Both the position numbers and the translations under genes were made by a program. A DNA stretch of 52,642 nt from Bacteroidaceae bacterium (lineage in GTDB: Bacteria; Bacteroidota; Bacteroidia; Bacteroidales; Bacteroidaceae), in assembly GCA_017517925.1 (NCBI GenBank), contig JAFWXS010000118.1, forward strand, positions 1-52,642. The letters run 5' to 3'. Under the pieces are notes generated by a model. That model had not been told where the DNA came from. It ran no database searches and was given only the letters and a program-made list of their open reading frames with translations. How positions within the stretch are numbered: the first letter of the stretch is position 1; the number at the start of each line of letters is the position of its first letter. Of this stretch, positions 18,111 through 43,730 are shown one piece after another.

Positions 18111-18184
18111 GGTGCGTTAGTTCAGTTGGTTAGAATACATGCCTGTCACGCATGGGGTCACGGGTTCGAGTCCCGTACGCACCG
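18111..18184 (+). tRNA. tRNA-Asp (GTC)
   Basis: A 74-base cloverleaf: acceptor stem GGTGCGT/ACGCACC, D-loop GTTCAGTTGGTTAGAAT, anticodon stem CATGC/GCATG with loop CTGTCAC (anticodon GTC), T-arm ACGGG TTCGAGT CCCGT and discriminator G. The next three bases are CCA (18185-18187), so the tail is encoded here. Confidence 0.96.
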
Positions 18185-18220
18185 CCAGAAATAAACAACT
18201 CCCGAAATTCAATACTTATT

Positions 18221-18294
18221 GGTGCGTTAGTTCAGTTGGTTAGAATATCTGCCTGTCACGCAGGGGGTCACGGGTTCGAGTCCCGTACGCACCG
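18221..18294 (+). tRNA. tRNA-Asp (GTC), second copy
   Basis: The same as the first copy except in the anticodon stem (TCTGC/GCAGG, with a T-G pair at the top). CCA is not encoded. The two copies are 36 bases apart and share one promoter and terminator. Confidence 0.96.
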
Positions 18295-18295
18295 C

Positions 18296-28697: not shown

Positions 28698-28744
28698 TAT
28701 GATGAGTGATTTTCCTATAAATAGCTGATAAATTAAATAAATGA

Positions 28745-28776
28745 CAAAGATATATCAAACTGTGCGAAATGCCAAA
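28745..28776 (-). promoter_or_regulatory. Promoter of lepA
   Basis: On the minus strand TTTG (28776-28773) and TATCTTTG (28752-28745) with a 20-base spacer, about 48 bases ahead of the lepA ATG. Confidence 0.8.
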
Positions 28777-28868
28777 TTCTGGAGGCTTGTAGGACGTTTT
28801 TTTTACTTTATAGCTCCTTTATGGGGCTTTGCAGACTCCTTGGTCTTCTTCTGTTGCCGTTTTGCACG

Positions 28869-28956
28869 TGGAGGCGGTGCTATAAATTCCTGGAGGCGGT
28901 GCTATAAATTCTTGGAGGCAGTGCTATAAATCTGCGGAGGCAGTGCGATAACAGCG
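28869..28956 (+). repeat. Four tandem 22-bp repeats
   Basis: Units begin at 28869, 28891, 28913 and 28935, with the core GGAGGC(G/A)GTGC(T/G)ATAA. The first two differ by one base, the third by a few and the fourth is decayed. The period is about two helical turns, so one protein could bind the same face each time. Confidence 0.9.
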
Positions 28957-29010
28957 GAGTAGGTGTGAGGACTTCGTCGGTTCTGGGCGCATGCAGTGGG
29001 GTAGGGCGCG

Positions 29011-29214
29011 AAGCGTTACAAAGCGTTACAAGCGTTACAAAAAAATGGATACCCCCGTCTTTTTCTTGCGTAGCATACGCTTGTAAAAGAATTTTATCTA
29101 ATATATATAATTAATTATATATATTAGATAAAATTTTATACGCCCTATTTATTTCTATTTTTTCTCGGCGGAGTGTGTGTTTTTTTGTAACGCTTGTAAC
29201 GCTTTGTAACGCTT
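29011..29214. repeat. 35-bp perfect inverted repeat around a 46-bp AT palindrome
   Basis: Left arm 29011-29045 and right arm 29180-29214 are exact reverse complements. Each arm is itself built from three copies of AAGCGTTACA plus an A-run. Between them, 29090-29135 is a perfect palindrome with 23-base arms (left arm starts AATTTTATCTAATATATATA). The 134 bases between the arms contain no TAnnTTTG box on either strand. Confidence 0.92.
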
Positions 29215-29354
29215 GTAACTGCGCTCGTTGGCGCTATCCTTGCTTCGCCCCGAGAGGATAAATTCATCCCCAAATGCTCTCAGCTAAACCCGAAATAAAA
29301 CCCAAACAATTTCTCAAAAAAAGCAAAAAAAGCAAAAATGTGGAAAGAAAGTTG

Positions 29355-29362
29355 TATCTTTG
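29355..29362 (+). promoter_or_regulatory. -7 box upstream of the lipoprotein operon
   Basis: TATCTTTG, 86 bases before the first gene at 29449. A clear -33 TTTG is missing. The start of the transcript (TTTGCAACTTGTTTTGCATA) resembles the leader of the TPR gene at 51857. Confidence 0.5.
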
Positions 29363-29448
29363 CAACTTGTTTTGCATATAGCACCGATAGGGGCCGCTAT
29401 GTATGCATGCAAATAGGAGAAAACAATAATAAAAAGAAGATATATATA

Positions 29449-30264
29449 ATGTTAATGAAAAAGATGGAAAAGATGTTGGGCGCAGCATTCGTTTTTGGAG
29501 CAATGCTGGCCTCATGCAGTCAGAACGCAGACTTTGTGGGTCAGACTGAAGAAGGAGAGGGACAATTGTTCCTTACATTGGGTGCCGATGCAGGCTTTAC
29601 CAAGACGCGTGCCCTTTCGGAAGCATCGTATGAGAATACCGACAACTATACCGTGGTCGTTACAGATAAGGATGGTATAGAAAAGGTGAGATGTATGGGA
29701 GCGGAACTTTCCTCAAAGATGCCTTTGACTTTGAGTCTTGGAAGCTATAGCGTACAGGCGTTCTATGGGAAAGAACATGCTTATTCGCGTGATGAGTTCT
29801 ATGTGTTCGGTGAGGTAAAGGGTAGTATCAAGGCTGACCAAAAGGAGACCGTAGAGGTTGTATGCGAGCCTACCTGTGGACGTATCAAGGTGGAGTTTGA
29901 CAAGAATATGGCAACCTATTACAACGATTACAGCGTGTCTTTTACAGGTACCGAGGCTGTGGGTACTGGCTGTTTCGAGTGGAAGAAGAATGATACCGAT
30001 CCCTTCTACGTAGCACTGAAAGAGGGAGGAGAGGTTATAACCTTTACTATATCTGTAACTCCTAAAGATGACTATGTGAACAATCAACAACAGGGAGCGA
30101 CGAAGACTGGAACATTCAGACTTAATCGCAATAAAGGATACAAAATGAATATTTCTGCTCACTACACACCTACGGCTGTAGGCGATATTGAGATTAGTAT
30201 CACCATTGATGAAAGTACTAATGATAAGCCTGTAGACATAGAAGTACCAATTGAGTGGACGTGA
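29449..30264 (+). CDS. DUF4493-type surface lipoprotein, operon gene 1
   Basis: A 271-residue lipoprotein (from ATG 29449; 29455 is also possible). The signal ends in the lipobox LASC. After an acidic linker comes a first strand GQLFLTLGAD, the site TKTRA with Arg 31 residues behind the Cys, and then a beta-rich domain (NYTVVVTDKDG, LSLGSYSVQAFYGKE, VVCEPTCGRIKVEFD). It ends in IEVPIEWT. This is the layout of DUF4493 proteins, which resemble fimbrillin-type domains. I infer a surface subunit. It lies behind the structured intergenic region and is the first of ten genes on the same strand. Confidence 0.8.
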   Translation: MLMKKMEKMLGAAFVFGAMLASCSQNADFVGQTEEGEGQLFLTLGADAGFTKTRALSEASYENTDNYTVVVTDKDGIEKVRCMGAELSSKMPLTLSLGSYSVQAFYGKEHAYSRDEFYVFGEVKGSIKADQKETVEVVCEPTCGRIKVEFDKNMATYYNDYSVSFTGTEAVGTGCFEWKKNDTDPFYVALKEGGEVITFTISVTPKDDYVNNQQQGATKTGTFRLNRNKGYKMNISAHYTPTAVGDIEISITIDESTNDKPVDIEVPIEWT

Positions 30265-30317
30265 AGTTTCGGAGATTAGCAATCTTTAATTTATGTACTA
30301 TATATAAATATGGAGTT

Positions 30318-31586
30318 ATGAATATATCTAAACATATATTAGTAGGAGCCTGCGTCGCACTTGGCCTGGCTTCTTGCGCAAACGAAGATTTCTCTACGGT
30401 GAAGACGGGCAGCATGTTGCTCAGCGTAGACAAGGTGGCTCCCACAGCCACCCGTGCCGTAGAAACGGCCGACTACCCCGTGGCTGTATACTCAGTGCTC
30501 GATAATAGCGAAGTGGCATCGTACGAAAAGGCTAGCCTCATACCCGAGAAGCAGGTGATGGCCGTAGGCCAGTATTACGCTACGGCTCACACACCCGGTG
30601 TGATGGAGAAAATACAGAGCACACCCTACTATGCTGGTCGCGACACGTTCGAGATTATGCAGAACATCAATACCGTAGCAACCGTCGTATGCCGCATGGC
30701 AAACGGTAGCGTGACCGTGGCATATAGCGACGCCTTCCTTGAGGCTTTCTCTAATTGGACCGTGTCAATTGACGATGGAGGACAGACCGCACTGGTCTAC
30801 AGCAAGGAGCGCGACGGACTGACACCCGCACCCGCCTACATCCGTTGGGAAGAGAACGTCAAGACACTCAAGGTAAACATCGTGGCTACCACAATGGCCG
30901 GTAACCGCATCTCGAACAGCAATACACTCACCAAGCAGCAGGCAAACGAGCAGTACGATAGCGATACCGAATACTTCGCCGGTGGTGACTGCATCGTCAT
31001 CAACTTCGACCCCGTAGAGAGTACCGAGGGAGACATTACGGGTATCTCAGTGCGTGCCAACATCAGCTTCGACGACAATGAGCGCGAAGAGTCATTCGAG
31101 ATGGAGGTCGAGGACTTCATCCCCGAAGATACGGGCGATGACACACCCGGCGACGACACTCCCAGTGGCGACAGCAATGCCATCACATTGGACCTCCCCG
31201 AGAATATGACCGTAACGGCCGTGACAGACCCCTCACTCGGTGACACATACATCGCTGCCGAGCACGGCATCAAGAGCATCAGCGTGAAGATGACCTCTAC
31301 GAGTGATGCTATGATGGGCTCGTTGGCTGATTTGGCTGGCAACTACAACGGAGTAGACTTTGTGGCTGGTGCTGAGGTCGTGGCAAACCAGGAGATGGTA
31401 AGATTGTTCGGTGACTTGGGACAGACACTCGCAGTACCTGCTGTGGGCGATACTGAGTATGTATTCCCCATCGGTAACTTCTTCACCTTGCTGGCATTCT
31501 TGCCTGGTGAGCACTCATTCACACTGACCATTACCGACATGGAGGGTAACACCAAGGACGGATTGCTCAAGTTGACCGTAGAATAA
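30318..31586 (+). CDS. DUF4493-type lipoprotein with extra C-terminal domain, operon gene 2
   Basis: 422 residues from ATG 30318 (an upstream in-frame ATG at 30255 overlaps gene 1 and would hide the signal). Signal with lipobox LASC; first strand SMLLSVDKV; TATRA with Arg 26 residues behind the Cys; then YPVAVYSVLD and the DUF4493-like body (GQYYATAHTPG, VCRMANGSVTVAYSDAF). A Thr/Asp/Pro linker (DTGDDTPGDDTPSGDS) near residues 275-295 joins a second domain with SLGDTYIAAEHGIKSISVKM and a terminal strand HSFTLTITD. The linker suggests two separately folded domains. Function inferred from the operon. Confidence 0.78.
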   Translation: MNISKHILVGACVALGLASCANEDFSTVKTGSMLLSVDKVAPTATRAVETADYPVAVYSVLDNSEVASYEKASLIPEKQVMAVGQYYATAHTPGVMEKIQSTPYYAGRDTFEIMQNINTVATVVCRMANGSVTVAYSDAFLEAFSNWTVSIDDGGQTALVYSKERDGLTPAPAYIRWEENVKTLKVNIVATTMAGNRISNSNTLTKQQANEQYDSDTEYFAGGDCIVINFDPVESTEGDITGISVRANISFDDNEREESFEMEVEDFIPEDTGDDTPGDDTPSGDSNAITLDLPENMTVTAVTDPSLGDTYIAAEHGIKSISVKMTSTSDAMMGSLADLAGNYNGVDFVAGAEVVANQEMVRLFGDLGQTLAVPAVGDTEYVFPIGNFFTLLAFLPGEHSFTLTITDMEGNTKDGLLKLTVE

Positions 31587-31616
31587 TCATAAAGGATAAC
31601 ATACACGATATAGAAT

Positions 31617-33419
31617 ATGAAAAAGATACATTATATACTATCTACCCTGCTGCTTGCAGCCTTGGTGGTTTCATGTAGCCAAGAGGGGGATATTGATGAA
31701 GCTCGTCAAGGTTACTTGTCGCTGAAAATCAGTTCGCTGACCTCGACTCATGCCCCCAGCGCAAGCCGTGCTGCAGCCCCTGATGACTATGCACCCAAAA
31801 ACCTCCACGTAGAGATACGTGATGTTAAAGGTACGGTGGTAAAGAGTACTGACGACTTTGAAAACGACGCCTTATTCCAGGAAAATATCCGCCTAACAGC
31901 TGGCAACTACACCATCGTAGCCCACTCGGCAAACTGGGACGGTGAAGGCTCGGGCTTCGACACACCCTTCTACTATGGCCAAACCACCATCGAGGTGAAG
32001 CCACAGACCTTAGTGACAGCAACGCTCACCTGCACATTGGCTAACGTCAAGATTACCGTAAACTACGACCAGTCGTTCCTCAACAACTTCAAGTCGGCCA
32101 TAGCCACCATCACCTCGTCTATCGCAGAGGTTACACCCCTCGCATTCGTGATGAACGAGACGACACAGGCAGGCTACATCCCTGCAGGAGACTTCACCGT
32201 AAAGCTCGACGTGGTGAACCATAAGGACGAGCCCAACAGCCTCTCACAGGACTTCACCGACGTGCAGCCGCGCGACCACTACATCCTGAACTTCAAGCTG
32301 GCCGACGAAGGCTACCTGGGCGATGGAGCAGGAGGCGGTATCAAGGTCGAAGTGGACGAGACAACCAAGACCTATACCTTCACCTTCGAGGTACCCCGCA
32401 AAAGTGCAATCACGCTGGTTACACGTGGTGCCAATGCATGGAGTAACTTCGCTATGCTCAATGCCTCGGTAACTGCTAAGATTGAGTCGTTCACCAACGA
32501 CGGACTCACATTCCAGTGGCGCAAGGTTGGTGATGCTAATTGGGCAGTACTGTCCAACAGCAACCTCACCATCGATGCTTCAGATAACGTCACCGCAACC
32601 CTGAAGGGACTGCAACCCAATGCCAACTACGAGTATCGCCTATGCTACATCAAGGACGATACAGAGGTGCTAAGCGACCCCGTGGCGTTCACTACCGAAC
32701 AGCAGATTGCACTCTACAACGGTGGCTTCGAGAACTGGTGGATGGATGGTAAGGTAGCCTATGCCACTGAGCAAGGCGTATCATATTGGGATACCAGTAA
32801 CCAAGGTGCAGCATCGTTTGGCGGTAGCAACACCACCGAGACTACAAGTGTTGTACACGGTGGTAGCAAGGCAGCCATGTTGCAGTCAAAGTACATCGTC
32901 ATCAAGTTTGCGGCTGCCAGCCTCTATACTGGTGCGTTCGGTGAGTTGGTGGGTACCAGTGGTGCTAAACTGAATTGGGGCGTTCCCTTCACTGCGCGTC
33001 CTACTGCATTGAAAGGATATATGCAGTATGCTCCCGTTGCAATCAATCGTGTGGGAAGTAATCTACCTGCCGATGCACCTGGCAAGGGGGAAACTGACCA
33101 ATGTGGTATGTATTGCGCACTCTTGACCGAGGAACTGCATATCGACAATACTAAACTGGAGACTATCCCCAACTGGGATACCGACTCTCGTGTGATTGCT
33201 TATGGTGCTTTGCCCCTTGAGCAGAACGTACATAGCGGTGGACAGTGGAAAGAGGTGAACATCCCCTTGGTATACAGAGACTTGACAAGAAAACCCACAC
33301 ATCTGCTCATCGTGTTCTCGGCAAGTAAATATGGTGATTACTTCCATGGCGGTGAGGGTAGTACACTCTATGTGGATGACTTCTCACTCGAGTACGGTGA
33401 TAGCCCCGTGGTAAGATAA
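31617..33419 (+). CDS. DUF4493 + fibronectin-like + PCMD lipoprotein, operon gene 3
   Basis: A 600-residue lipoprotein (lipobox VVSC). Domains in order: DUF4493-like domain about residues 30-240 (YLSLKISSL, SASRA with Arg 31 after the Cys, RLTAGNYTIVAHSANW, CTLANVKITVNYD), a fibronectin III-like region about 255-360 (NAWSNFAMLNASVTAKI, NANYEYRLCY), and a PCMD domain about 362-600 beginning ALYNGGFENWW. PCMD is a beta-sandwich domain thought to bind or process carbohydrate. The PCMD part is nearly the same as in gene 5 (by eye about 88% identical), while the front is unrelated. Confidence 0.8.
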   Translation: MKKIHYILSTLLLAALVVSCSQEGDIDEARQGYLSLKISSLTSTHAPSASRAAAPDDYAPKNLHVEIRDVKGTVVKSTDDFENDALFQENIRLTAGNYTIVAHSANWDGEGSGFDTPFYYGQTTIEVKPQTLVTATLTCTLANVKITVNYDQSFLNNFKSAIATITSSIAEVTPLAFVMNETTQAGYIPAGDFTVKLDVVNHKDEPNSLSQDFTDVQPRDHYILNFKLADEGYLGDGAGGGIKVEVDETTKTYTFTFEVPRKSAITLVTRGANAWSNFAMLNASVTAKIESFTNDGLTFQWRKVGDANWAVLSNSNLTIDASDNVTATLKGLQPNANYEYRLCYIKDDTEVLSDPVAFTTEQQIALYNGGFENWWMDGKVAYATEQGVSYWDTSNQGAASFGGSNTTETTSVVHGGSKAAMLQSKYIVIKFAAASLYTGAFGELVGTSGAKLNWGVPFTARPTALKGYMQYAPVAINRVGSNLPADAPGKGETDQCGMYCALLTEELHIDNTKLETIPNWDTDSRVIAYGALPLEQNVHSGGQWKEVNIPLVYRDLTRKPTHLLIVFSASKYGDYFHGGEGSTLYVDDFSLEYGDSPVVR

Positions 33420-33453
33420 TTTGTTAACAAGCATATAGGCTCATACACACGAT

Positions 33454-34320
33454 ATGATTAGAAACTATTGCAAGGTGCTCATCAGTATGCTACTGCTGGT
33501 GGCAGCTATCCCAACCTCGGCACGAAGCTTCACCCTACAAGGGGAGGCTTCGGAGCTGTCGCTCTGTGAAAGTGCAGTGAGCACCCTTGACGACAAGAAT
33601 ATCCAAGAGAACAAGGTGGGGCAGAAGACCGAAGACTACATCGAGCAGCGAGGCATGATACGCCGCGGTGCCACAAAGGCACTCTTCATCCCCAAAGGTC
33701 AATGGATGGTAGGAGGACAAATAGGATGGAACCAGTGGAATAGCGATAACCTCAACCTCTTCATGCTCACCGACCTTAATCTCCAAGGACATACCTTCTC
33801 TGCTGGTCCTTGCCTCGGCTACTTCTTTACCAAGAACATGGCAGCAGGATTGCGCTTCTCATACAAGCGCAATTACTTCAACGTGGGCAGTCTGGGACTA
33901 AGCCTTGGCGACGCCTTGAACTTCGGACTCAGCGATATAGGCTACCTCCAACACAACTACAAGAGCACAGCCTTCATGCGTTCGTACATCCCCATCGGAG
34001 AGAGCAAGATATTCGGCCTCTTCGGCGAGTTGCAACTCAACTACACCTTCTCGGAAGGCAAGAACGGCGTTGGCGTGGGAGAATCCCGCACCGAAGTGTA
34101 TGAGTGTGCACATTCTCTCGGAATAGGATTGGGGGGCGGATTGGTCGTATTCCTCGCCGACTTTGCCGCAGCCGAGGTGATGCTCAACGTCGGAGGCTAT
34201 GACTTCAAGTGGGGCGAGCAGAATATCAATAACGTGGAACAGGGAAGTCACAACAGCTCGGGAGCAAACTACCGACTGGACCTCTTTAGTCTCAAATTCG
34301 GTGTAACGTTCTATCTATGA
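33454..34320 (+). CDS. Outer-membrane beta-barrel protein, operon gene 4
   Basis: A 288-residue exported protein and the only one of the ten without a lipobox. The signal is MIRNYCKVLISMLLLVAAIPTSA. A periplasmic stretch of about 55 residues with an RRG turn follows (about 25-80), then strands such as WMVGGQIGWNQW, SAGPCLGYFFT, AAGLRFSYKRNYF, KIFGLFGELQLNYTF and a terminal LKFGVTFYL of barrel type. It overlaps gene 5 by ATGA. It could be the membrane partner of the surface lipoproteins, but that is inference; similar barrel genes stand alone elsewhere. Confidence 0.75.
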   Translation: MIRNYCKVLISMLLLVAAIPTSARSFTLQGEASELSLCESAVSTLDDKNIQENKVGQKTEDYIEQRGMIRRGATKALFIPKGQWMVGGQIGWNQWNSDNLNLFMLTDLNLQGHTFSAGPCLGYFFTKNMAAGLRFSYKRNYFNVGSLGLSLGDALNFGLSDIGYLQHNYKSTAFMRSYIPIGESKIFGLFGELQLNYTFSEGKNGVGVGESRTEVYECAHSLGIGLGGGLVVFLADFAAAEVMLNVGGYDFKWGEQNINNVEQGSHNSSGANYRLDLFSLKFGVTFYL

Positions 34321-36062
34321 AGATACTACAGAAGTCCATCCTCATTGCGTTGACCTTCTTGCTTGCTACGTGTGACATCAAGGACGACATCGCGTACCCC
34401 ATCATAAAAGGTCATATCACCGCATTTGAGGTTGAGGGACAGTGCGATGACAAGGGAGGAGCAAGCTCTACCCCCATCATCGACAAACAGACGCGCACCA
34501 TCACCCTCTACGTCAGCGACACGGTAGACGTGGCCAACCTGCGCGTGACGAAGGTGGCCGTAGCCAGTACGACAGAGAATATGGGTATCAGTCAAACCGA
34601 ACTGCCACGCATACAACCCAAAACAAACGGTGGAGAGAAATTCCCCGAGCATGGGTTCAACGACACGACGGGGATACTGAACATCCGTATGGACTTTACA
34701 CGTCCCGTAGAGTTCAGGGTGAGCACACTGCAGGACTATATCTGGACAGTCGTCGTAAACCAAGTGGTAAAGCGGGAGATAGAACTCGAAAACCAAGTAG
34801 GCCCGGCCATCATCGAACCTAACCTGTGCAATGCCATCGTCTACGTCAAGAAAGGACAGAACTTGCGCCACCTGAAAGTCAATAAATTCTCGCTCGGCGG
34901 TGAGCATGGTAGCGTTAAGAACGACCCCACGGGGACTTACGCCAATTTCTATAGACCTCAGACATTCGAGGTGACAACAGGATGGGGTGCCACACAAATA
35001 TGGAACGTGATGGTCGATACCGTAGAGGTAGTGGAGACTAAGGACCCCGTAACGATGACCACCAATGCGTGGAGCAACTTCGCGATGCTCGAAGCCACCA
35101 TCGCCCCCGAGGACGAAGCCTTCAAGACCACACTCGTCTATGGAGAGTGGAAGCGTGTCGACGAAGAAGAATGGGCGGAGATTCCCAACTACGAACTCAC
35201 AATAGACCGCTCGGATGGCACTGCATATCAGTTCGGAACGACAATAAGAGACTTGGCTCCAGGTACGGAATACGAGTTCCGCCTCCGCTATGAAGATGGA
35301 GGGCAGGAACAGACAAGCAAGAGCGTATCCTTCACTACCGAAGAGCAGATAGCACTCTACAACGGTGGCTTTGAGAACTGGTGGATGGATGGCAAGGTAG
35401 TCTATGCAACCGAACAGGGCGTTTCATACTGGGATACCAGTAACCAAGGCGCAGCATCGTTTGGCGGTAGCAACACCACCGAGACTACCGAGGTGGTACA
35501 TGGCGGTAGCAAGGCAGCCATGTTGCAGTCAAAGTACATCGTCATCAAGTTTGCGGCAGCCAGCCTCTATACTGGTGCGTTCGGTGAGTTGGTGGGAACC
35601 AGTGGTGCCAAACTGACTTGGGGTGTACCCTTCGAAGCGCGTCCCACAGTACTGACAGGATATATGCAGTATGCACCCGTAGCCATCAACCGTGGGGGAA
35701 GCAATCTGCCTACCAATGCCCCGGCAATGGGCGAGCCTGACCAATGTGGCATGTATTGCGCACTCTTGGCCGAGGAACTGCATATCGACAATACTAAACT
35801 GGAGACTATCCCCGATTGGGAGACAGACCCTCGCGTAATCGCCTACGGCGCCTTACCCGCTGAACAGAACGTACATAGCAATGGGCAGTGGAAGAAGGTC
35901 AATATTCCCTTGGTGTATAACGACCTTAAACGTAAACCCACGCACCTGCTCGTCGTGTTCTCGGCCAGCAAGTATGGAGACTATTTTCACGGTGGAGAGG
36001 GTAGTACGCTCTACCTCGATGACTTCGAGTTGGTATACGGAGATAGACCATTGATGAAATAA
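34317..36062 (+). CDS. PCMD lipoprotein with N-terminal beta-sandwich repeats, operon gene 5
   Basis: 581 residues; lipobox LATC. The front (about 25-240) is two related Ig-like repeats (GHITAFEVEGQ..., with TRTITLYVSDTVDVANLRV, then a second with YVKKGQNLRHLKVNKFSLGG) resembling DUF5018-type modules. Next is a fibronectin III-like region (NAWSNFAMLEATIAP, GTEYEFRLRY) and then a PCMD domain (about 345-581, ALYNGGFENWW). It lacks the strand-plus-TRA site of its neighbours, so it would not be processed like them. The PCMD domain is a near copy of that in gene 3. The start overlaps gene 4. Confidence 0.78.
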   Translation: MKILQKSILIALTFLLATCDIKDDIAYPIIKGHITAFEVEGQCDDKGGASSTPIIDKQTRTITLYVSDTVDVANLRVTKVAVASTTENMGISQTELPRIQPKTNGGEKFPEHGFNDTTGILNIRMDFTRPVEFRVSTLQDYIWTVVVNQVVKREIELENQVGPAIIEPNLCNAIVYVKKGQNLRHLKVNKFSLGGEHGSVKNDPTGTYANFYRPQTFEVTTGWGATQIWNVMVDTVEVVETKDPVTMTTNAWSNFAMLEATIAPEDEAFKTTLVYGEWKRVDEEEWAEIPNYELTIDRSDGTAYQFGTTIRDLAPGTEYEFRLRYEDGGQEQTSKSVSFTTEEQIALYNGGFENWWMDGKVVYATEQGVSYWDTSNQGAASFGGSNTTETTEVVHGGSKAAMLQSKYIVIKFAAASLYTGAFGELVGTSGAKLTWGVPFEARPTVLTGYMQYAPVAINRGGSNLPTNAPAMGEPDQCGMYCALLAEELHIDNTKLETIPDWETDPRVIAYGALPAEQNVHSNGQWKKVNIPLVYNDLKRKPTHLLVVFSASKYGDYFHGGEGSTLYLDDFELVYGDRPLMK

Positions 36063-36077
36063 CGAACGACGAAACAA

Positions 36078-37904
36078 ATGATTAAGACAACACGACATAG
36101 CCTAACGATACTCATAGCCCTCGTCATGGGAGCGGTTATGGGAGGATGTAGTCAAGAGGAGTTCTCTTCGTTTGCCAGTGGCACATTGCATTTGAGCATT
36201 GGCCATGCAGCAACGAAAGCCGAAACGCGTGCTACACCTACAGAAATAGGCAAACCTTTGGCCGAAAAGTTCAACCTCAAGATACAACGTAGCGGTGGTG
36301 ACTATCCCTCGTATGAAGGTGAGTTCGTCGGTGACGTGACACTCAGAGTTGGAACTTACGACATCACGGCCTATTATGGGGAGAATGTTGTAATCGGAAA
36401 GAATACTCCCTACTATGAGGGTGTGGCAACAGCTGTGATCGAGGAAGACCAGTCAACCTCAGTGACTATCCCTTGCCGTGTGGCCAATGCCTTAGTGTCT
36501 GTTGTCTTTGGAGCCGATGAGGAGGAAAGACGCCGCTTCGACCGGCACTATGAAGATTATGGCGTGTTGGTGAGGGTGGACGACCATTCGCTGGCCATTC
36601 CTTATGACGAGGCACAGAGTTGTAGCGTATATTTCCCCGCAGGAAGCAAGCCTACATTGGTATTCTATGACACGCTTAAGGAAACGGGCGAACACGTGTG
36701 GTGTGAACTCTCGTCAACAGCGTTGCCTGAGACCTTCAAGGCTGCCGACCATGCTATAGTTACCCTCAGCCTGCCCGAGCCCGAGAGCGCGCTCAACGTG
36801 GACATCTCCAAGGTAGAGGTGGTGACGGCAATGCTTGACGAAACCATCCCTCTGTCGTGGCTTCCTATCTCTACAGCAACTGCAGCACACCACTACGACG
36901 CACAGGGGGTTCTGGTGGGTACCGATGTGACCTTCTCTAACTCATATCCCGGCATGCAATGGAAGGCTGTTGTGACCAATGCTGCGGGTCAGGAGGTGCG
37001 CAGCATATCGGGTATGGGCGAACTCGTCTCAACTTATAATAGTTCATCCGCATGGCCCTACCTCCCCTCGGGCGACTATAAGGCTATATTCTATCTCGAA
37101 GACGAAGGCAATTACAATAAAGTGGGTAGCCGCGACTTTAATATTGGAAGTCCCGAGCTGAAACTTACACTCGGAGGATACACCTCTTACACCAAATACT
37201 TGGAGGGAGATGTAGACGCTGCCAATAAATGTGATAGAAAAACAGTGTATGACATCTCGGTAGCGCTCAACGTAAGCGAGGCGCTGCTGGCCAAGTTCCC
37301 TTATACCTTCACTTTCCAATACGCCTCGATGGCTGTAGAGAAGGTTGCTGCTGGTAAGAATACCTTCAAGATGAGTGAACCGCTAACCAACCAAGCTGTA
37401 AGCTTTACTCCTTATCGATTGAAGGCCAGCGCTTTGTTCGATGGTATTGCGGTAAGCAGCAATAGAGACTTCTACATCACAGGACTTCCTGTAACTTATG
37501 CGCCGCCGAAGAAAGAAACAGGGTGGGTAGCAGGAACGGATTACGTGACTTTCAGTGCAAATGAGGTTAAACTGGGTGAAAGAGGTTGGCTCACAGCACA
37601 CTACAATGAGTATATCCACAATCCTGATTTTGCGATACCTCACAATACTGGTGTTGCTATGGATTACAGCTTTATGATACACCCCGCAACCGAAGGTACT
37701 ACGCTGACCATCACCGTGGGCGAAGATGTGATACTCTCGAAGCGTGAAGAGGGAGGTTTGGCCAATTCATCAGACTATCCTCACAGTGGAACCAATAGTG
37801 TAACCTTGTCAGGTAATGCTGTAGAGATAAAGTGCTTGAACAGTTATGGTGGTAGTGCAACTTATACCTCAATATACTCTTTGGCTTTTAAATATAGTAA
37901 GTAA
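36078..37904 (+). CDS. DUF4493 lipoprotein with shared C-terminal module X, operon gene 6
   Basis: 608 residues. Signal with lipobox GGC; first strand TLHLSIGHA; ETRA with Arg 27 residues after the Cys; then a DUF4493-like domain to about residue 235 (LRVGTYDITAYYGEN, CRVANALVSVVFGADEE). Residues about 255-608 form a long C-terminal module with SSAWPYLPSGDYKAIFYLEDEGN, GGYTSYTKYLEGD, DFYITGLPVTY and a final SYGGSATYTSIYSLAFKYSK. The same module ends gene 9, where it follows a fimbrillin domain instead. The stop TAA is directly followed by the ATG of gene 7. Confidence 0.78.
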   Translation: MIKTTRHSLTILIALVMGAVMGGCSQEEFSSFASGTLHLSIGHAATKAETRATPTEIGKPLAEKFNLKIQRSGGDYPSYEGEFVGDVTLRVGTYDITAYYGENVVIGKNTPYYEGVATAVIEEDQSTSVTIPCRVANALVSVVFGADEEERRRFDRHYEDYGVLVRVDDHSLAIPYDEAQSCSVYFPAGSKPTLVFYDTLKETGEHVWCELSSTALPETFKAADHAIVTLSLPEPESALNVDISKVEVVTAMLDETIPLSWLPISTATAAHHYDAQGVLVGTDVTFSNSYPGMQWKAVVTNAAGQEVRSISGMGELVSTYNSSSAWPYLPSGDYKAIFYLEDEGNYNKVGSRDFNIGSPELKLTLGGYTSYTKYLEGDVDAANKCDRKTVYDISVALNVSEALLAKFPYTFTFQYASMAVEKVAAGKNTFKMSEPLTNQAVSFTPYRLKASALFDGIAVSSNRDFYITGLPVTYAPPKKETGWVAGTDYVTFSANEVKLGERGWLTAHYNEYIHNPDFAIPHNTGVAMDYSFMIHPATEGTTLTITVGEDVILSKREEGGLANSSDYPHSGTNSVTLSGNAVEIKCLNSYGGSATYTSIYSLAFKYSK

Positions 37905-38633
37905 ATGAAGCGGTACTTATATACATATTATATATTCGGAATATTTGCTCTTATCGCCTGCCAACAGATGGAAGGACCTGGGACTCTGGGCGGCGAGTGC
38001 ATCTTGGAACTCGAGGTCGCTCGTGCTGGAAAACCCTCTGTGACTTCGCGTGCCGTAGATGCAGACTTGGCTGTCACCATTCTTGATGCCAATGGAGAGG
38101 AGTATCTCTTCTATCCTGCAGGCAATATCCCTAAGAAAATCGTATTGGAACCGGGCGTATTCACCGTATGTGCCCATACCGAAAACCAAAATAATTGGCA
38201 CACAGCCCAGGGAGGAAAGGGCGAACCTTGCTACTTTGCCAGCCAGCAGGTTGAGATGGAGTATGACCATCGTACTCGTATCTCTATGTCTGTTCCTATG
38301 GTTAATTATGCCGTTGAGGTGGACCTTCCCGACTTATTTGATAATCTGTTCAAAGTATACCAATTCACACTAAAGAGTGGCGAACGTGAAGTGGCCGTTC
38401 GCGAAGGTGAAAAGGCTTATTTTGACCTCTCTGCTGGGGGCTTTTTCTATTCACTTAGTGTAACCAATACGGATGGCGTATCTCATGCTCATTCACCTAT
38501 ATGGTTCTTTGATGTGCAGGGGGGTAAGCACTATCTTTTGCGCTACCACTATGCTTCAGAAGCTATGTCGGGTAACGTAGAGATTGAGATTACTGATGAT
38601 ATGGGGACCGACGATACATATATAGACCTGTAA
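37905..38633 (+). CDS. Short DUF4493-type lipoprotein, operon gene 7
   Basis: 242 residues; a signal rich in Tyr and Phe (YTYYIFGIFALIAC) with the lipobox Cys at residue 19. First strand ECILELEVA, TSRA with Arg 30 residues after the Cys, then LAVTILDANGEEY and VLEPGVFTVCAHTEN, the core of the DUF4493 domain, and SMVNYAVEVDLPD. It has no C-terminal addition (ends DMGTDDTYIDL), so it could be a single-domain subunit. It abuts genes 6 and 8 with no spacer. Confidence 0.78.
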   Translation: MKRYLYTYYIFGIFALIACQQMEGPGTLGGECILELEVARAGKPSVTSRAVDADLAVTILDANGEEYLFYPAGNIPKKIVLEPGVFTVCAHTENQNNWHTAQGGKGEPCYFASQQVEMEYDHRTRISMSVPMVNYAVEVDLPDLFDNLFKVYQFTLKSGEREVAVREGEKAYFDLSAGGFFYSLSVTNTDGVSHAHSPIWFFDVQGGKHYLLRYHYASEAMSGNVEIEITDDMGTDDTYIDL

Positions 38634-39563
38634 ATGAAGATTATGACTCGACTATATACGCAAATACAATCAACGGCGAAGCTCTGCCTCACGTTGCTCA
38701 CAGCCTTTCTGTTGGGCGCGTGCTCCGCAGATATTGCCGAAACCACCATCCCCTCTATTGATGACACCGAGCTGTGGGGTACCTTGGAACTCTCGCTTGG
38801 CAGTGCCACGCGTGCTACCTCGACGGTTATTTCCAAAGAGGAGGCCGACAATTATTGGGTGACCGTGTATAAGGGGCAAGACATCAGTCGGGAAACAACG
38901 CGTCTGAAAGACCTCAATACGCGTCTGTCTGCCGGTTATGGCTATACGGTGAAAGCCGAAAACTGCTTGGAGACTGAGGCAGAAGCAGCAAATTATGGCT
39001 GGGGACAACGTCGCTTCTTAGGCTTTTCTCCATCTTTTTCCATCAAGCCGGGCGAGACAACCAAGGTGGGGGTAGGCTGCACCGTGGCCAATGCGGGTGT
39101 AGAGGTGGTGTTCGATGAGACCATGGCGCATCACTTTACCACCTCCTATCGCGTTACCATTACCGAAGGTGAACGTACCATTGTCTTTGATGAACTTACA
39201 GGTGGTAAGCGCGAATCGGATGTTATCACTCCGGGTAGCGTGGCTTATTATAATGTCGATGATAGCGGCACTCGTACACTGACCTATACGATTGAGGCTT
39301 ATGGCATCGGTAAGCGTTTGGTGAAGACTGCTGCCATGGTGGTGACGAAGGCAAAAATCTCGCGTCTGACGCTAATCTTCATACCAGGAACATTGGATTT
39401 GGATATTGCAATTGACCAAGAGGATATTTTTGTGGAGTTGGGTATTGAGATTACCGATAAGAATGTCATTCAGGATGATGGCTCGGCAGATGTTAATGGT
39501 GCGCACGATGACTTTGAAGAGAGTAGTGACGGCGTGGACATCTCTGATTATGGACAACAATAA
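38634..39563 (+). CDS. DUF4493-type lipoprotein, operon gene 8
   Basis: 309 residues; signal with lipobox LGAC; first strand TLELSLGSA; ATRA with Arg 30 residues after the Cys; then YWVTVYKGQDISRE, LSAGYGYTVKAENC and CTVANAGVEVVFDETM. The back half is beta-rich (RTLTYTIEAYGIGKRL, RLTLIFIPG) and closes with an acidic tail (DGSADVNGAHDDFEESSDG). Same class as genes 1, 7 and 10. No spacer to either neighbour, so one messenger is very likely. Confidence 0.78.
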   Translation: MKIMTRLYTQIQSTAKLCLTLLTAFLLGACSADIAETTIPSIDDTELWGTLELSLGSATRATSTVISKEEADNYWVTVYKGQDISRETTRLKDLNTRLSAGYGYTVKAENCLETEAEAANYGWGQRRFLGFSPSFSIKPGETTKVGVGCTVANAGVEVVFDETMAHHFTTSYRVTITEGERTIVFDELTGGKRESDVITPGSVAYYNVDDSGTRTLTYTIEAYGIGKRLVKTAAMVVTKAKISRLTLIFIPGTLDLDIAIDQEDIFVELGIEITDKNVIQDDGSADVNGAHDDFEESSDGVDISDYGQQ

Positions 39564-41411
39564 ATGAGATTTATAATGAAACAGCATATCCTATACCACA
39601 TATCACTCGTCTTGGGTGTTGCACTCTGTCTTTTTGCGTGCAATGAAGAGGACTTCGTGGATAACACCACTCAAGAATTGTCTTCACTCGAACTCTACAC
39701 CTCCTCTACTAATACACGTACCAGTCTGCTCGATGACGGCACTACCGTAGTATGGAACGCGGAGGACGAACTGGCCGTATATGACTACGAGGCTGCCAAG
39801 CATCGCTTCATAGCAGACAATATCAGTGGTTCGTCTGCACGATTCATCGGAAAGATTACAGCGAAGAAAGACTATTTTCTCGCTCTTTATCCCTATGAGT
39901 TGGGGGCTGAGGCTCTCTCTGCCAATAACGAAATCGTGGTGACACTACCCCAAGCGCAGACCGCAGCGGAAAGCACCTTTGCTCCGAACCTTAATGTGTC
40001 TGTAGCCAAGGGAGCACGCAATGTGGATGGTAGCCCCTCAAATATCACATTCTACAACGTGTGTCAACTGCTCAAGTTTACAGTGCCAGCTTATGCTGCA
40101 GGTAAAATCAAGCAGATAGAGTTTGTTGCCAATACTCCGATTGCGGGAGAGATGCATGTGGACTATAGCACCGATGTGCCTAAGGCAGTGATTGCTGCAG
40201 ATGCCGCTAAGAGTGTCACCATTGTTCCTCCTGCTGGAACGACCGCCTTTAATGCTGGGACCTATTATATTGTATCGGCACCTGTAGAGCTAAATGGGTT
40301 TACGATGTCGTTCACCTGTGACGAGACTTCCTACTCGCTTGGTAGCCATAGCACCTTTGGTGGGGTTGCAGGCAAGGTATATTCTTTAGGTAATATAGAT
40401 CTCGTGAATACTCCTAGGGTATCGGCCGTTCACCAGTATGCGAATGGCACGTTGCAAGGCACTAAACTCACCATTAGTAATGCACCGATGGGTGAATCTG
40501 CGTGGAGTGCTGTCATTAAGAATGCATCCAATACCGTTGTGCGCACCTTGCAGGGAACTGGCACATTGGAATCATCGGAGCAAGATGTAAATTGGCCCTA
40601 TTTACCCAAGGGAAACTACACTATAGAATATACCTTTACAACTTCGAATGATAAGGTCGTTACTAAGACGAATGCATTTAGTGTTGTTGAGTCACCAACA
40701 TTCTCCGTAGGAGTAACGGCCTATACATCGTACTCTTATTATAAGGGTGATGGGGTAGAAAAAAATATCGTTACGGCTAATAGCCTTAACAATGTTACTA
40801 TCTATGAACCTAAAATTTCAATCAATGGTATTGCGTCGCATATCCTTAACAATGCAAACTACTCTTTTAATGTGACAAATAATTTTGGCGGTTCACAACC
40901 GAGTGTGAATAGTGGTGTGTATTCATACAAGGACTATACCGTAAGCAACTATACTTCTTATACGCTTACGGGCAATGTCGCATTTGATGGAGTGACTCGT
41001 TCGGCAAACAAGACGGTGTATATTACCGGCATTCCTTATACGGCGCAACCGCCAACGCAGGCAGATTGGAGTGGTAGTGCAGAGCAATGGAAAGCTGATT
41101 ATGTGCGTTTACACAAGCACACCATTACAAAGACCTTCTACTGTCCTGAGAATATAAATGTAAAAGTGGGACAGATAGCAAGTGCACGTCAACATACTTC
41201 GGGGACAACCTATAAGCTGATTTGTAGCGGAGTAACGTTAAAAACACTCAATACCAGTTGGATGAGTACAGTTGAAGATAATGCAACCTACGATTCTGAG
41301 TTGAAATCAAGTGACGCAACCATAAAGTGCCAGAGTTCATATGGTAGTCCAGATGCAATTATTGAAGGAACTCATGCAAAGGTACGCTCTATTTCCGTAA
41401 GATACAGATAA
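39564..41411 (+). CDS. Fimbrillin-domain lipoprotein with shared module X, operon gene 9
   Basis: 615 residues; signal with lipobox LFAC. The N-terminal domain (about 30-290) is a fimbrillin/Mfa-like-1 domain: first strand LELYTSS, NTRT (Arg 26 after the Cys), VVWNAEDELAVYD, FYNVCQLLKFTVP, GGVAGKVYSLGNI. Module X follows (about 295-615): WPYLPKGNYTIEYTFTT, TAYTSYSYYKGDG, VYITGIPYTA and final KVRSISVRYR, homologous to the end of gene 6 but well diverged. The gene is visibly more AT-rich than the his genes. Finding a true fimbrillin domain in this operon supports the pilus-like view. Confidence 0.8.
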   Translation: MRFIMKQHILYHISLVLGVALCLFACNEEDFVDNTTQELSSLELYTSSTNTRTSLLDDGTTVVWNAEDELAVYDYEAAKHRFIADNISGSSARFIGKITAKKDYFLALYPYELGAEALSANNEIVVTLPQAQTAAESTFAPNLNVSVAKGARNVDGSPSNITFYNVCQLLKFTVPAYAAGKIKQIEFVANTPIAGEMHVDYSTDVPKAVIAADAAKSVTIVPPAGTTAFNAGTYYIVSAPVELNGFTMSFTCDETSYSLGSHSTFGGVAGKVYSLGNIDLVNTPRVSAVHQYANGTLQGTKLTISNAPMGESAWSAVIKNASNTVVRTLQGTGTLESSEQDVNWPYLPKGNYTIEYTFTTSNDKVVTKTNAFSVVESPTFSVGVTAYTSYSYYKGDGVEKNIVTANSLNNVTIYEPKISINGIASHILNNANYSFNVTNNFGGSQPSVNSGVYSYKDYTVSNYTSYTLTGNVAFDGVTRSANKTVYITGIPYTAQPPTQADWSGSAEQWKADYVRLHKHTITKTFYCPENINVKVGQIASARQHTSGTTYKLICSGVTLKTLNTSWMSTVEDNATYDSELKSSDATIKCQSSYGSPDAIIEGTHAKVRSISVRYR

Positions 41412-41420
41412 ATATACTCT

Positions 41421-42158
41421 ATGAAATATATTCATTCTCTATACATGCTTCTTGCGGCTCTATTGCTAATTACGAGCTGCGATGCTGACCATGCAACTCC
41501 GGTTATGGGCAATGAGACAGGAACTTTCTCTCTTGTGCTTACTCCAGGTGAGGTGCAGAGTGAAGTTATTACTCGTGCAGCGTTGAATCTTGACGTTGAG
41601 GACTTTCAGATTACGTTGGCAGAGGCGAATGGTACACTGTTGCTTGATAAACGTCTTTTGGGCGAGCTTACCGAGGCCGAATGTACGCTTCCTGCGGCTA
41701 CGGGCTATCAAATTAAGGCGGAGAGTTGCACTCCTGAAGAGTCTATTACACTCAACGAGCGGTGGGGTATGGCACATTTTGTAGCAACGACGACGTTTGA
41801 CATTGTGTCCAATCAGCATACTCCCGTGTCGCTCACCTGCTCTATGGATAATGCCGGGGTGCAGTTTGTCTTTGAACAGAGTTTCTTGGACAAATTCCCC
41901 ATACATGCAGTGACTACCCAAGATGGTCGTTCGTTGGTCTTTAATAAAGATACGCACGATAAGATAGCCTATTATCCCATAGAAGAAGATGGGGAAACTG
42001 TACGCCTCAAACTGACTGGCTCGGCTGGCGGATGGAGCGACCGTATTGAGATTATTCAAGAGATGCCTATTAACCGAGGAAAAATATATATAGTTAGCAT
42101 AACTTATAACGAAACAATGTCCAGCGAAGTAGCTTTAAAGGTATCTGAGGTTCATTAA
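41421..42158 (+). CDS. Short DUF4493-type lipoprotein, operon gene 10
   Basis: 245 residues; signal with lipobox ITSC; first strand TFSLVLTPG; VITRA with Arg 32 residues after the Cys; then FQITLAEANGTLLLDK, LPAATGYQIKAESC and CSMDNAGVQFVFEQSFL, the conserved DUF4493 core. The C-terminus KIYIVSITYNETMSSEVALKVSEVH could be a final donor-type strand. A hairpin with a T-run 45 bases behind the stop closes the operon. Confidence 0.78.
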   Translation: MKYIHSLYMLLAALLLITSCDADHATPVMGNETGTFSLVLTPGEVQSEVITRAALNLDVEDFQITLAEANGTLLLDKRLLGELTEAECTLPAATGYQIKAESCTPEESITLNERWGMAHFVATTTFDIVSNQHTPVSLTCSMDNAGVQFVFEQSFLDKFPIHAVTTQDGRSLVFNKDTHDKIAYYPIEEDGETVRLKLTGSAGGWSDRIEIIQEMPINRGKIYIVSITYNETMSSEVALKVSEVH

Positions 42159-42203
42159 GGCGCTTCTTCCTAACTCTTTGGAACTACTTAGGGGGATTTA
42201 TAT

Positions 42204-42236
42204 TTAAGGAGGTGAATTTTGCCTCCTTAATTTTTC
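42204..42236 (+). terminator. Terminator of the lipoprotein operon
   Basis: Arms TTAAGGAGG (42204-42212) and CCTCCTTAA (42222-42230) with a nine-base loop, followed by TTTTTC. Confidence 0.75.
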
Positions 42237-42256
42237 TTAAATAAGAATAAAATCCT

Positions 42257-42264
42257 TATCTTTG
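42257..42264 (+). promoter_or_regulatory. -7 box upstream of the permease operon
   Basis: TATCTTTG, 50 bases before the permease ATG. The -33 region has no clear TTTG. Confidence 0.5.
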
Positions 42265-42314
42265 GCGACAGTTTTAACCGTGGGTAATTTCTTTTGCCGA
42301 CAAAACTATGAAAT

Positions 42315-43730
42315 ATGTCTGACTCGAATGGTAAGTTCAAACGCTCGATGCGCCCCATAGATGTGTGGGCCTTGGCATTGGGTGCAATAATTGGTTGGGG
42401 ATGCTTTGTGCTCCCAGGTAACGCATTTCTGCCGAAAGCCGGTCCGTTAGGTACGGCATTGGGTATGCTCATTGGGGCTTTCTTGATTATCGTGATAGCA
42501 CTCAGTTACGGATACCTCATCCGTAAGTTCCCCATCAGCGGAGGAGAGTTTATCTACACCAAGGAAGCCATAGGCAAGCGTAATGCTTTTGTCTGCGGTT
42601 GGGGTATGATATTGGCCTACTGGAGCCTTATCCCGCTTAATGCTACGGCATTGGCACTCATCAGCCGCTACTTGTTCCCTGGTATCATACAGCGCGGCCT
42701 GCTCTACCAAGTGGCCGGGTGGGATGTATATGCCGGTGAGGTGGTATTGGCCTCGGTGTTCATTATCCTCATGGCACTTATCAATATCAAGGGCATCAAG
42801 CAGGCGGCATGGTTGCAGACGGCTATCTCGCTTACGCTCGTGGGATGCATCTGTCTCATTACATGCCTGATTATGGGCATGGCCGACTGGAGCAACTTGA
42901 CACCTGGTTTCCCTGAGAATACGAACTGGTGGCAGGGCGTGTTCAGTATCGTGGCTATGGCACCTTGGGCGTTCATCGGTTTCGACTGCATACCGCAGAG
43001 CGCCGAGGAGTATAACTTCGACCACAAGAAGTCTACACGCATCATGGTACTGGCCATCTTCATTGCCGCCCTGCTCTATATAGCTGTATGTACGGTGACT
43101 GCTACGGGCTTGATGCCGTGGCAGGATCTGCTGGCTTCGCGTGAAAACTGGCCTACAGGTTTCGTCGTGCGCAAGTTGTTGGGACTTGCGGGCTTGGTAA
43201 TCCTCGGTATTGCCATGTTCTGTGCCGTGGTGTCGGGTATGAACGCCTTCTATATCTCCACTTCGCGCCTGATGTATGCGATGGCCGATGAGGGCAGTCT
43301 GCCTGCGGTGTTCAAGCAACTCTCTCCCAAGCATGGTACCCCGCGCAACGCCATCCTTTTCGTCATGGTGATGAGTCTGTTTGCTCCGTGGTTTGGTCGC
43401 GAAGTGCTCAACTGGATTGTCGACATGACCAGTGTAGGCGCAGCCATTGTGTTTGCTTACACCACCGGCTCAGCAGCCATTATGGCCCGTAAGGCCGGTG
43501 ATACACGTCAAATATGGATTGGCATCGTGGGTTGTGTGTTCTCGCTCTTCTTCCTGTCGCTGCTGCTCATCCCCGGTATGCCAGGCTACCTCTCTTTCCA
43601 GAGCCGCGTGATATTGTTGGTATGGATTGCAATAGGTTTTGCTTTTTACTGGATTATACGTAAGAACTATGGAGAAATACAACGAAAGAGAAAGCTACTT
43701 CGTAGACATAGAGAAAATACTGGGGCCTAA
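42315..43730 (+). CDS. APC-superfamily amino acid permease
   Basis: A 471-residue inner-membrane transporter with twelve hydrophobic segments, from ALGAIIGWGCFVLPG (TM1, unwound Gly-rich motif) to VILLVWIAIGFAFYWIIR. The GGEFIYTKEAIG stretch and the TM6-like SIVAMAPWAFIGFDCIPQ are typical of the APC family. The substrate cannot be told. The next gene, a glycine-lipid type acyltransferase, starts 62 bases before the permease ends, so their expression is tied. A basic tail (RKRKLLRRHRENTGA) lies in that overlap. Confidence 0.9.
   Translation: MSDSNGKFKRSMRPIDVWALALGAIIGWGCFVLPGNAFLPKAGPLGTALGMLIGAFLIIVIALSYGYLIRKFPISGGEFIYTKEAIGKRNAFVCGWGMILAYWSLIPLNATALALISRYLFPGIIQRGLLYQVAGWDVYAGEVVLASVFIILMALINIKGIKQAAWLQTAISLTLVGCICLITCLIMGMADWSNLTPGFPENTNWWQGVFSIVAMAPWAFIGFDCIPQSAEEYNFDHKKSTRIMVLAIFIAALLYIAVCTVTATGLMPWQDLLASRENWPTGFVVRKLLGLAGLVILGIAMFCAVVSGMNAFYISTSRLMYAMADEGSLPAVFKQLSPKHGTPRNAILFVMVMSLFAPWFGREVLNWIVDMTSVGAAIVFAYTTGSAAIMARKAGDTRQIWIGIVGCVFSLFFLSLLLIPGMPGYLSFQSRVILLVWIAIGFAFYWIIRKNYGEIQRKRKLLRRHRENTGA

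Follow-up and report, generated by a model that had tools for sequence, protein, structure and literature searches.

The 52,642-nucleotide stretch analysed here, hereafter the window (contig JAFWXS010000118.1 of assembly GCA_017517925.1, from a Bacteroidaceae bacterium), carries at positions 29449-42158 ten tightly packed open reading frames, G1 to G10, all on the forward strand, which form a candidate operon. Judging from gene order and profile comparisons, on which the odds rest, there is about an even chance that this operon makes an adhesive surface fibre related to type V pili, with PCMD domains as glycan-binding heads and the lipoprotein G5 as a tether. A narrower and more tentative idea is that such fibres would constitute a distinct strand-exchange class, characterised by a dedicated barrel, a glycan-binding base lipoprotein docked on that barrel (C-x-NDIPYP) and heads homogenised by repeated gene conversion.

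Nine of the ten products carry a lipobox, as defined by motif and not by a signal-peptide program, and the remaining one, G4, looks like a small outer-membrane barrel. DUF4493 exceeds its Pfam cut-off in seven proteins (G1, G2, G3, G6, G7, G8 and G10) and PCMD in two (G3 and G5), both of which also have a sub-cut-off fn3-like match, whereas G4 and G9 gave no match over cut-off in the Pfam scan of the ten proteins. A further module, X, is common to G6 and G9 (26% identity over 360 aa, E 1.4e-25). All seven DUF4493 matches of the source genome, a draft 76.6% complete, fall inside the operon. An earlier sequence-only reading had described ten co-directional genes closed by a terminator, nine lipobox proteins plus one barrel, modules in different pairings and the absence of a protease, and each of these points stands, the last one by the Pfam scan. 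Its range of 0 to 53 bases for the spacers also holds, but the two overlaps that it counted turn out to be a single ATGA overlap and three zero-base junctions, the spacers from G1 to G10 being 53, 30, 34, -4, 15, 0, 0, 0 and 9 bases.

The proteins of related loci were coded as D (DUF4493), P (PCMD), X (module X), F (fimbrillin-like domain) and B (barrel), with D-short for a single DUF4493 and D-mid, D-P, N-P, D-X and F-X for the G2, G3, G5, G6 and G9 types, respectively. A barrel scan of named genomes gave 245 relatives, of which the best 80 were kept, corresponding to 79 distinct loci (at least three of them, L129, L095 and L116, repeat seed genomes, and the PCMD domains of L072 duplicate those of L070) with titles from Bacteroides, Phocaeicola, Parabacteroides, Barnesiella, Prevotellaceae, Odoribacter, Coprobacter, Flammeovirga and others. 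The genes D-P, B (one or two) and N-P are contiguous in 65 of these 79 loci, and a D gene directly precedes this core in 64 of the 65. The recurrence of the gene set in other genomes, which the sequence-only reading had set as a test beforehand, is thus observed as a fixed order, D, D-P, B, N-P, kept across genera and also in one Flammeovirga locus, L101. In another 11 loci, seven of them from Flammeovirga, B adjoins N-P without the full core, and the last three are cut or irregular; most Flammeovirga loci are reduced to the barrel and the PCMD lipoprotein. The number of D genes per operon ranges from 2 to 9, and classified neighbours are separated by a median of 6 bases, with 467 of 485 pairs closer than 400 (starts taken from the longest frame).

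At the level of the order, DUF4493 occurs in 15 of 149 genomes, the source genome included, and the G4-type barrel in 23 of 149 at E <= 1e-3, 11 of them strong (E <= 1e-30, a line set after seeing a gap in the scores). All 11 strong barrels lie in the 15 DUF4493 genomes and none in the 134 genomes without this domain; of the 23 genomes with a barrel at E <= 1e-3, 11 have DUF4493. This association (Fisher 9.9e-14) is partly circular because the barrels that went into profile A1 came from 9 of the 11 strong genomes, where they lie beside DUF4493; once these nine are removed, the two remaining strong barrels still fall within the 6 DUF4493 genomes among 140 (Fisher 0.0015), and in both genomes (G139 and G093) barrel and DUF4493 genes are on different contigs. 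Four genomes (G007, G042, G118 and G131) have a single DUF4493 copy each and no barrel match.

Some loci show additional features. Four Flammeovirga loci (L122, L123, L133 and L135) have a gene of 179-192 aa directly upstream of the minimal barrel and N-P pair (gap of 13-18 bases), and another one has a transglutaminase-like gene upstream of this pair (L130:8733-9701). F-type proteins lead the operon instead of D-long in L047 (4930-6759), L106, L115 and L125. In Parabacteroides, large proteins with Listeria-Bacteroides (InlB-type) repeats are encoded 324 and 14 bases downstream of the operon (L087:12670-17460 and L099:12357-16319, respectively), and other loci of this genus have similarly sized genes at that place. 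No relative of G3 was found in viral contigs.

Pilus-like domains and a basic site behind the lipid cysteine

The sequence-only reading had proposed a fimbrillin module and fimbrillin-like folds, and sequence profiles go part of the way towards an answer. The N-terminal domain of G9 resembles Mfa_like_1 (PF13149) with E 2.9e-4 and 20.9 bits, under the cut-off of 27 bits, and no other protein of the operon comes nearer to the cut-off of a fimbrillin or Mfa family in the Pfam scan, none reaching it. When its family F (11 sequences) was compared with Mfa_like_1 (21 domains), the probability was 97 (87-97 in bootstraps) and the score 72.5, against 32.1 for shuffled and 18.8 for reversed profiles, which makes a strong case, at the profile level, for a relationship with these pilins. 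In the case of DUF4493, when 120 D domains were aligned by hhalign to 11 Mfa2 domains, the probability was 92 (22-90 in 15 bootstraps) and the score 48.5; the highest of 40 block shuffles scored 28.7 and the reversed profile 10.9. This points with moderate strength to a relationship with the type V anchor family. The controls stayed at or below 1.3, namely PCMD and the barrel (against Mfa_like_1 only), the N-part of G5 against both Mfa_like_1 and Mfa2, and SusE (11 sequences kept from 14) against both. Module X opens with a PKD-like domain (E 0.002), gave 5 against Mfa2 and 49 against D over 46 columns, the latter with a score (34.6) barely above that of shuffles (31.5). This module was found in 19 of the 79 loci, where D and F hold the same position ahead of X. 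The C-terminal part of G2 matches the PKD domains of KIAA0319L (E 3e-8), and searches of PDB profiles with D and F returned nothing usable.

D proteins also show a basic motif, [ST][RK][AST], separated from the lipid cysteine by one short strand. In a count that misread two proteins of the window, G1, whose start was set too far 5', and G7, which was missed, 118 of 306 D/F proteins have TRA and 29 have SRA within 75 residues, at a median position of 30, versus 26 and 13 of 1442 background windows. At 15-49 residues past the cysteine, the looser motif is present in 94 of 108 D-short, 47 of 63 D-P, 48 of 75 D-mid, 29 of 47 D-long, 16 of 16 D-X, 7 of 7 F-X and 3 of 4 F proteins, but only in 10 of 74 N-P proteins and 392 of 3802 background windows. 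These counts exclude identical N-termini and proteins without a motif-defined lipobox (30 of 250 D, 23 of 90 D-P, 15 of 87 N-P and others), and those by class also exclude L129, L095, L116 and L072. Within 75 residues, the loose motif is found in 9 of 16 Mfa_like_1 pilins, 3 of 9 Mfa2 anchors and 4 of 15 SusE proteins. A basic site at such a defined position after the first strand would fit the maturation of type V pilins, which are cleaved by a surface clostripain according to the part of a 2025 review consulted (PMC12632263). As these pilins are reportedly cut in this way, the lack of a protease in the operon leaves no gap in the idea; a gene for a C11 peptidase is present elsewhere in the same genome (G000 C4:24211-25110, E 6.4e-67).

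The probable barrel, its neighbouring lipoprotein and the PCMD domains

G4 would fold into about eight strands, as judged by eye, and belongs to a conserved family, with no significant match in Pfam, NCBIfam or PDB. In 85 of 87 cases the first gene upstream of N-P is B, within 400 bases in 79. At the lipid cysteine, 75 of 84 N-P proteins have the motif C-x(1-3)-[ND]D[ILMVF]P, which was derived from inspection of their alignment and is present in 2 of 363 D/F proteins. This tether motif, the scarcity of the basic site in N-P and the adjoining upstream barrel suggest that G5 is an uncut base and G4 its partner, which G5 may contact. The N-part of G5 matches a surface protein of the levan system (chain 8a9y_T / 8aa0, E 4e-11), presumably Bt1761; in the section of the source consulted, the glycan-binding protein of the levan utilisome has two Ig-like domains beneath its binding domain (PMC7618045). 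G5 resembles such proteins in its Ig-like N-part, whereas its C-terminal domain is different, its neighbour is a small barrel and the operon has neither SusC/SusD nor a hydrolase.

The PCMD scores in G3 and G5, 143.8 and 141 bits, exceed the cut-off of 28 (PF13201). According to its description from BT2081 (PDB 3hbz), this family has a jelly-roll fold, a pocket and two possible catalytic residues, D259 and D338, and B. theta paralogues are located in polysaccharide loci, as far as the portion of that description consulted goes (PMC2954218). The C-terminal domains of G3- and G5-type proteins mostly share with BT2081 the aromatic positions of the pocket and the equivalents of D338 and D351: across the operons, all 164 PCMD domains have F or Y at the position of F202, and the two aspartates are kept in 152 and 153, respectively. 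Unlike in BT2081, the position of D259 is variable (G in G5 of the window, Asp in 8 of 87 N-P), and G3 fuses PCMD to DUF4493. A function as glycoside hydrolase is disfavoured, since many of the domains lack D259, one of the two residues proposed for catalysis, and a binding role seems likelier. The guess of the sequence-only reading that glycans are involved gains support from both the PCMD family and the levan-type N-part.

G3 and G5 share their C-terminal 337 aa with 74% identity, which jumps at about codon 352 of G3, where PCMD starts, and falls in the last bin, the PCMD domains themselves being 89% identical. In the close relatives L058 and L059 the same pair is only 40% identical, while their G3 PCMD is 77-79% identical to that of the window. 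In a tree of PCMD domains, copies of the same operon form a cherry in the window (W000, 0.985), L041 (1.0) and L047 (0.999), and their identity reaches 81% in L081, 82% in L041, 47% in L047, 58% in L101 and 57% in L091. The window (with L081) and L041 are clear as separate cases of homogenisation at the level of sequence; the pair of L047 is old and could come from an independent duplication, and L101 and L091 are suggestive. PCMD homogenisation thus occurred at least twice among 74 operons, and a common ligand of G3 and G5 may be its simplest reason.

A possible fibre and its alternatives

In a fibre of this kind, D and F subunits would arrive at the outer surface as lipoproteins, and an Arg-type C11 protease (clostripain) encoded in trans would cut at the basic residue, releasing the lipid and the first strand. 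The groove opened in one subunit would receive a strand of the next one, leading to polymerisation. Proteins with a single D (G1, G7, G8 and G10) would act as shaft or adaptor subunits, and those combining D or F with PCMD, PKD-like or X modules (G3, G2, G6 and G9) as tips or adhesins. Finally, G5 would retain its lipid, remain at the base and bind the same kind of glycan as G3, and G4 would be its membrane partner, a barrel that probably holds the conserved N-terminal tether.

Several observations weigh against this fibre. A PCMD head would be present both on a putative tip (G3) and at the base (G5), which is odd for a classical pilus, and the N-terminus of G5 in the window, CDIKDDIAYP, has a DDIAYP variant that falls outside the counted tether motif. 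The resemblance of D to Mfa2 drops below 40 in 4 of the 15 bootstraps, D against Mfa_like_1 is low (4 local, 26 global), and D and F show no relationship by profile (0.4); absent matches are weak evidence, as Mfa2 and Mfa_like_1 also fail to find each other (0.5 and 1.7). Strict [ST]RA occurs in none of 11 F and F-X proteins, in 10 of 47 D-long and in 1 of 16 Mfa_like_1 pilins (1 of 9 Mfa2, 2 of 15 SusE), so it is the looser motif that carries the likeness to pilins. The C11 protease is present in 10 of 11 operon genomes versus 23 of 138 others of the order (Fisher 7.9e-7), but this link is confounded: within the family, 41 of 44 genomes with the barrel and 196 of the 207 without it have the protease (237 of 251 in total), and the co-occurrence was therefore rejected as decisive evidence.

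The main alternative, tentative and less favoured than the fibre, is a surface complex for glycan capture that does not polymerise, in which lipidated D, D-P, D-X and N-P proteins would cluster on the small barrel as an analogue of a utilisome free of SusCD, holding glycans for enzymes or attachment. The levan-type N-part of G5, the mostly kept pocket residues of PCMD, the polysaccharide loci of the B. theta paralogues and the seven Flammeovirga loci with barrel and N-P and no adjacent D genes would all suit such a complex. Nevertheless, none of the ten genes scanned matches a family of SusC/SusD, of glycoside hydrolases or of sugar transporters, the basic site is common in D/F and scarce in N-P, and up to nine D genes per operon together with the interchange of D and F before X suit a modular pilus better.

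An ordinary type V pilus locus, with a stalk, tip and anchor that have merely diverged, is improbable. As in type V pili (FimA/Mfa1 of Porphyromonas gingivalis and the pilins of Bacteroides), there are lipoprotein precursors, a fimbrillin-like domain in G9, a Mfa2-like DUF4493, a candidate basic cleavage-type site and putative tips with extra C-terminal modules. However, the operon has neither a classical pilin nor a Mfa2 anchor over cut-off, the sole Mfa2 family match of the genome is on contig C7 (G000 C7:37000-52000, L199), which suggests an ordinary type V locus elsewhere in this genome, and a small barrel of a conserved family belongs to the core, as does a PCMD lipoprotein, while the type V descriptions, in the parts consulted, name stalk, tip, anchor and protease and no barrel or PCMD lipoprotein. 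Lastly, a pile-up of unrelated lipoproteins by tandem duplication at a permissive site, with no joint structure, would agree with the varying number of D genes and with the patchy presence in the genus, but it is very improbable given the order held across genera and the strong barrels found only alongside DUF4493 in the order sample. The multi-subunit surface structure of the sequence-only reading is, like the fibre, supported in part: recurrence and the glycan link are favourable, and the profiles go part of the way towards a fimbrillin fold.

Genomic setting and significance

Features of the operon are collected in Table 1. G1 has the lipobox LASC with Cys23 and the basic site TKTRA; G2 starts at the ATG in 30318, its lipid cysteine being in LASC at residue 20 counted from that ATG, and the version scanned for domains was one residue longer. 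The hairpin after G10 has the longest stem among the terminator-like sites listed for the region, sites which overall are not above chance (14 found vs 11.6 +/- 3.4 in shuffles). The consensus of the Bacteroides -7 element is TAnnTTTG; the candidate at 29355 has no matching -33 element, and three further such sites exist on the forward strand of 28700-42315.

Table 1. Genes and putative signals of the candidate operon (window positions).
Feature	Positions	Strand	Description
-7-like site TATCTTTG	29355..29362	+	resembles Bacteroides -7 element; weak candidate
G1	29449..30264	+	271 aa lipoprotein, single DUF4493 (D-short), Pfam E 2e-40
G2	30318..31586	+	422 aa lipoprotein, DUF4493 and C-terminal PKD-like (D-mid), Pfam E 2.7e-36
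G3	31617..33419	+	600 aa lipoprotein, DUF4493 (2.2e-49), fn3-like and PCMD (9.2e-42), D-P
G4	33454..34320	+	288 aa, no lipobox, probable small outer-membrane beta-barrel, family B
G5	34317..36062	+	581 aa lipoprotein, Ig-like repeats, fn3-like and PCMD (6.9e-41), N-P
G6	36078..37904	+	608 aa lipoprotein, DUF4493 (1.4e-32) and module X, D-X
G7	37905..38633	+	242 aa lipoprotein, single DUF4493, Pfam 5.7e-16
G8	38634..39563	+	309 aa lipoprotein, DUF4493 with acidic C-tail, Pfam 5.3e-23
G9	39564..41411	+	615 aa lipoprotein, fimbrillin-like N-domain and module X, F-X
G10	41421..42158	+	245 aa lipoprotein, single DUF4493, Pfam 5.7e-22
Terminator-like hairpin	42204..42230	+	12 pairs then T run, after G10

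The operon is present in 1 of 19 genomes of the genus, the G4-type barrel not being found in the 18 others (62-93% complete), and the barrel in 44 of 251 genomes of the family at E <= 1e-3. In one genus-mate (G158), lepA and a permease gene, which flank the operon in the window, are adjacent and 207 bases apart, and the four other stretches fetched have lepA without this permease. Gain of the operon by transfer is likely, loss in relatives being the alternative. A binning error was rejected, as nine of the 18 genus-mates have the operon-side lepA at 96-98% identity and seven have it at 89-90% (it is in fragments in one of the others and lacks a full match in the last), and both flanks are neighbours in G158. 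The GC content of the operon genes (0.44-0.54, vs 0.58 for lepA) overlaps that of other genes of the window.

Beside the operon, at 28990-29240, there is a palindromic element, in which a 35-base perfect inverted repeat (29011-29045/29180-29214) with GTTACAA units surrounds an AT palindrome of 46 bases, with similar copies on four other contigs of the same genome (C61, C14, C62 and C37), possibly a small non-autonomous mobile element. An invertible promoter was rejected because the -7-like site at 29355 lies outside the inverted repeat and the element is dispersed. The gap between lepA and the operon also contains direct repeats with 22-base spacing, TGGAGGCGGTGCTATAAATTC (28869-28951), and two adjacent tRNA-Asp genes with an identical anticodon map to 18111-18295.

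A full-text literature search, covering few subscription papers and preprints, returned nothing on DUF4493, PF14900, PF13201 or the PCMD domain name; within the literature searched, DUF4493 has no described function and PCMD is only described structurally. The operon brings known kinds of parts (lipoproteins, PCMD and Ig-like modules) into a conserved combination for which no description was found there. This conserved set, with its barrel and tether motif, gives both DUF4493 and PCMD a testable role in glycan adhesion. It also presents an example from nature in which gene conversion affects a single binding domain, and it may represent a second branch of the type V pili, themselves recognised only recently.

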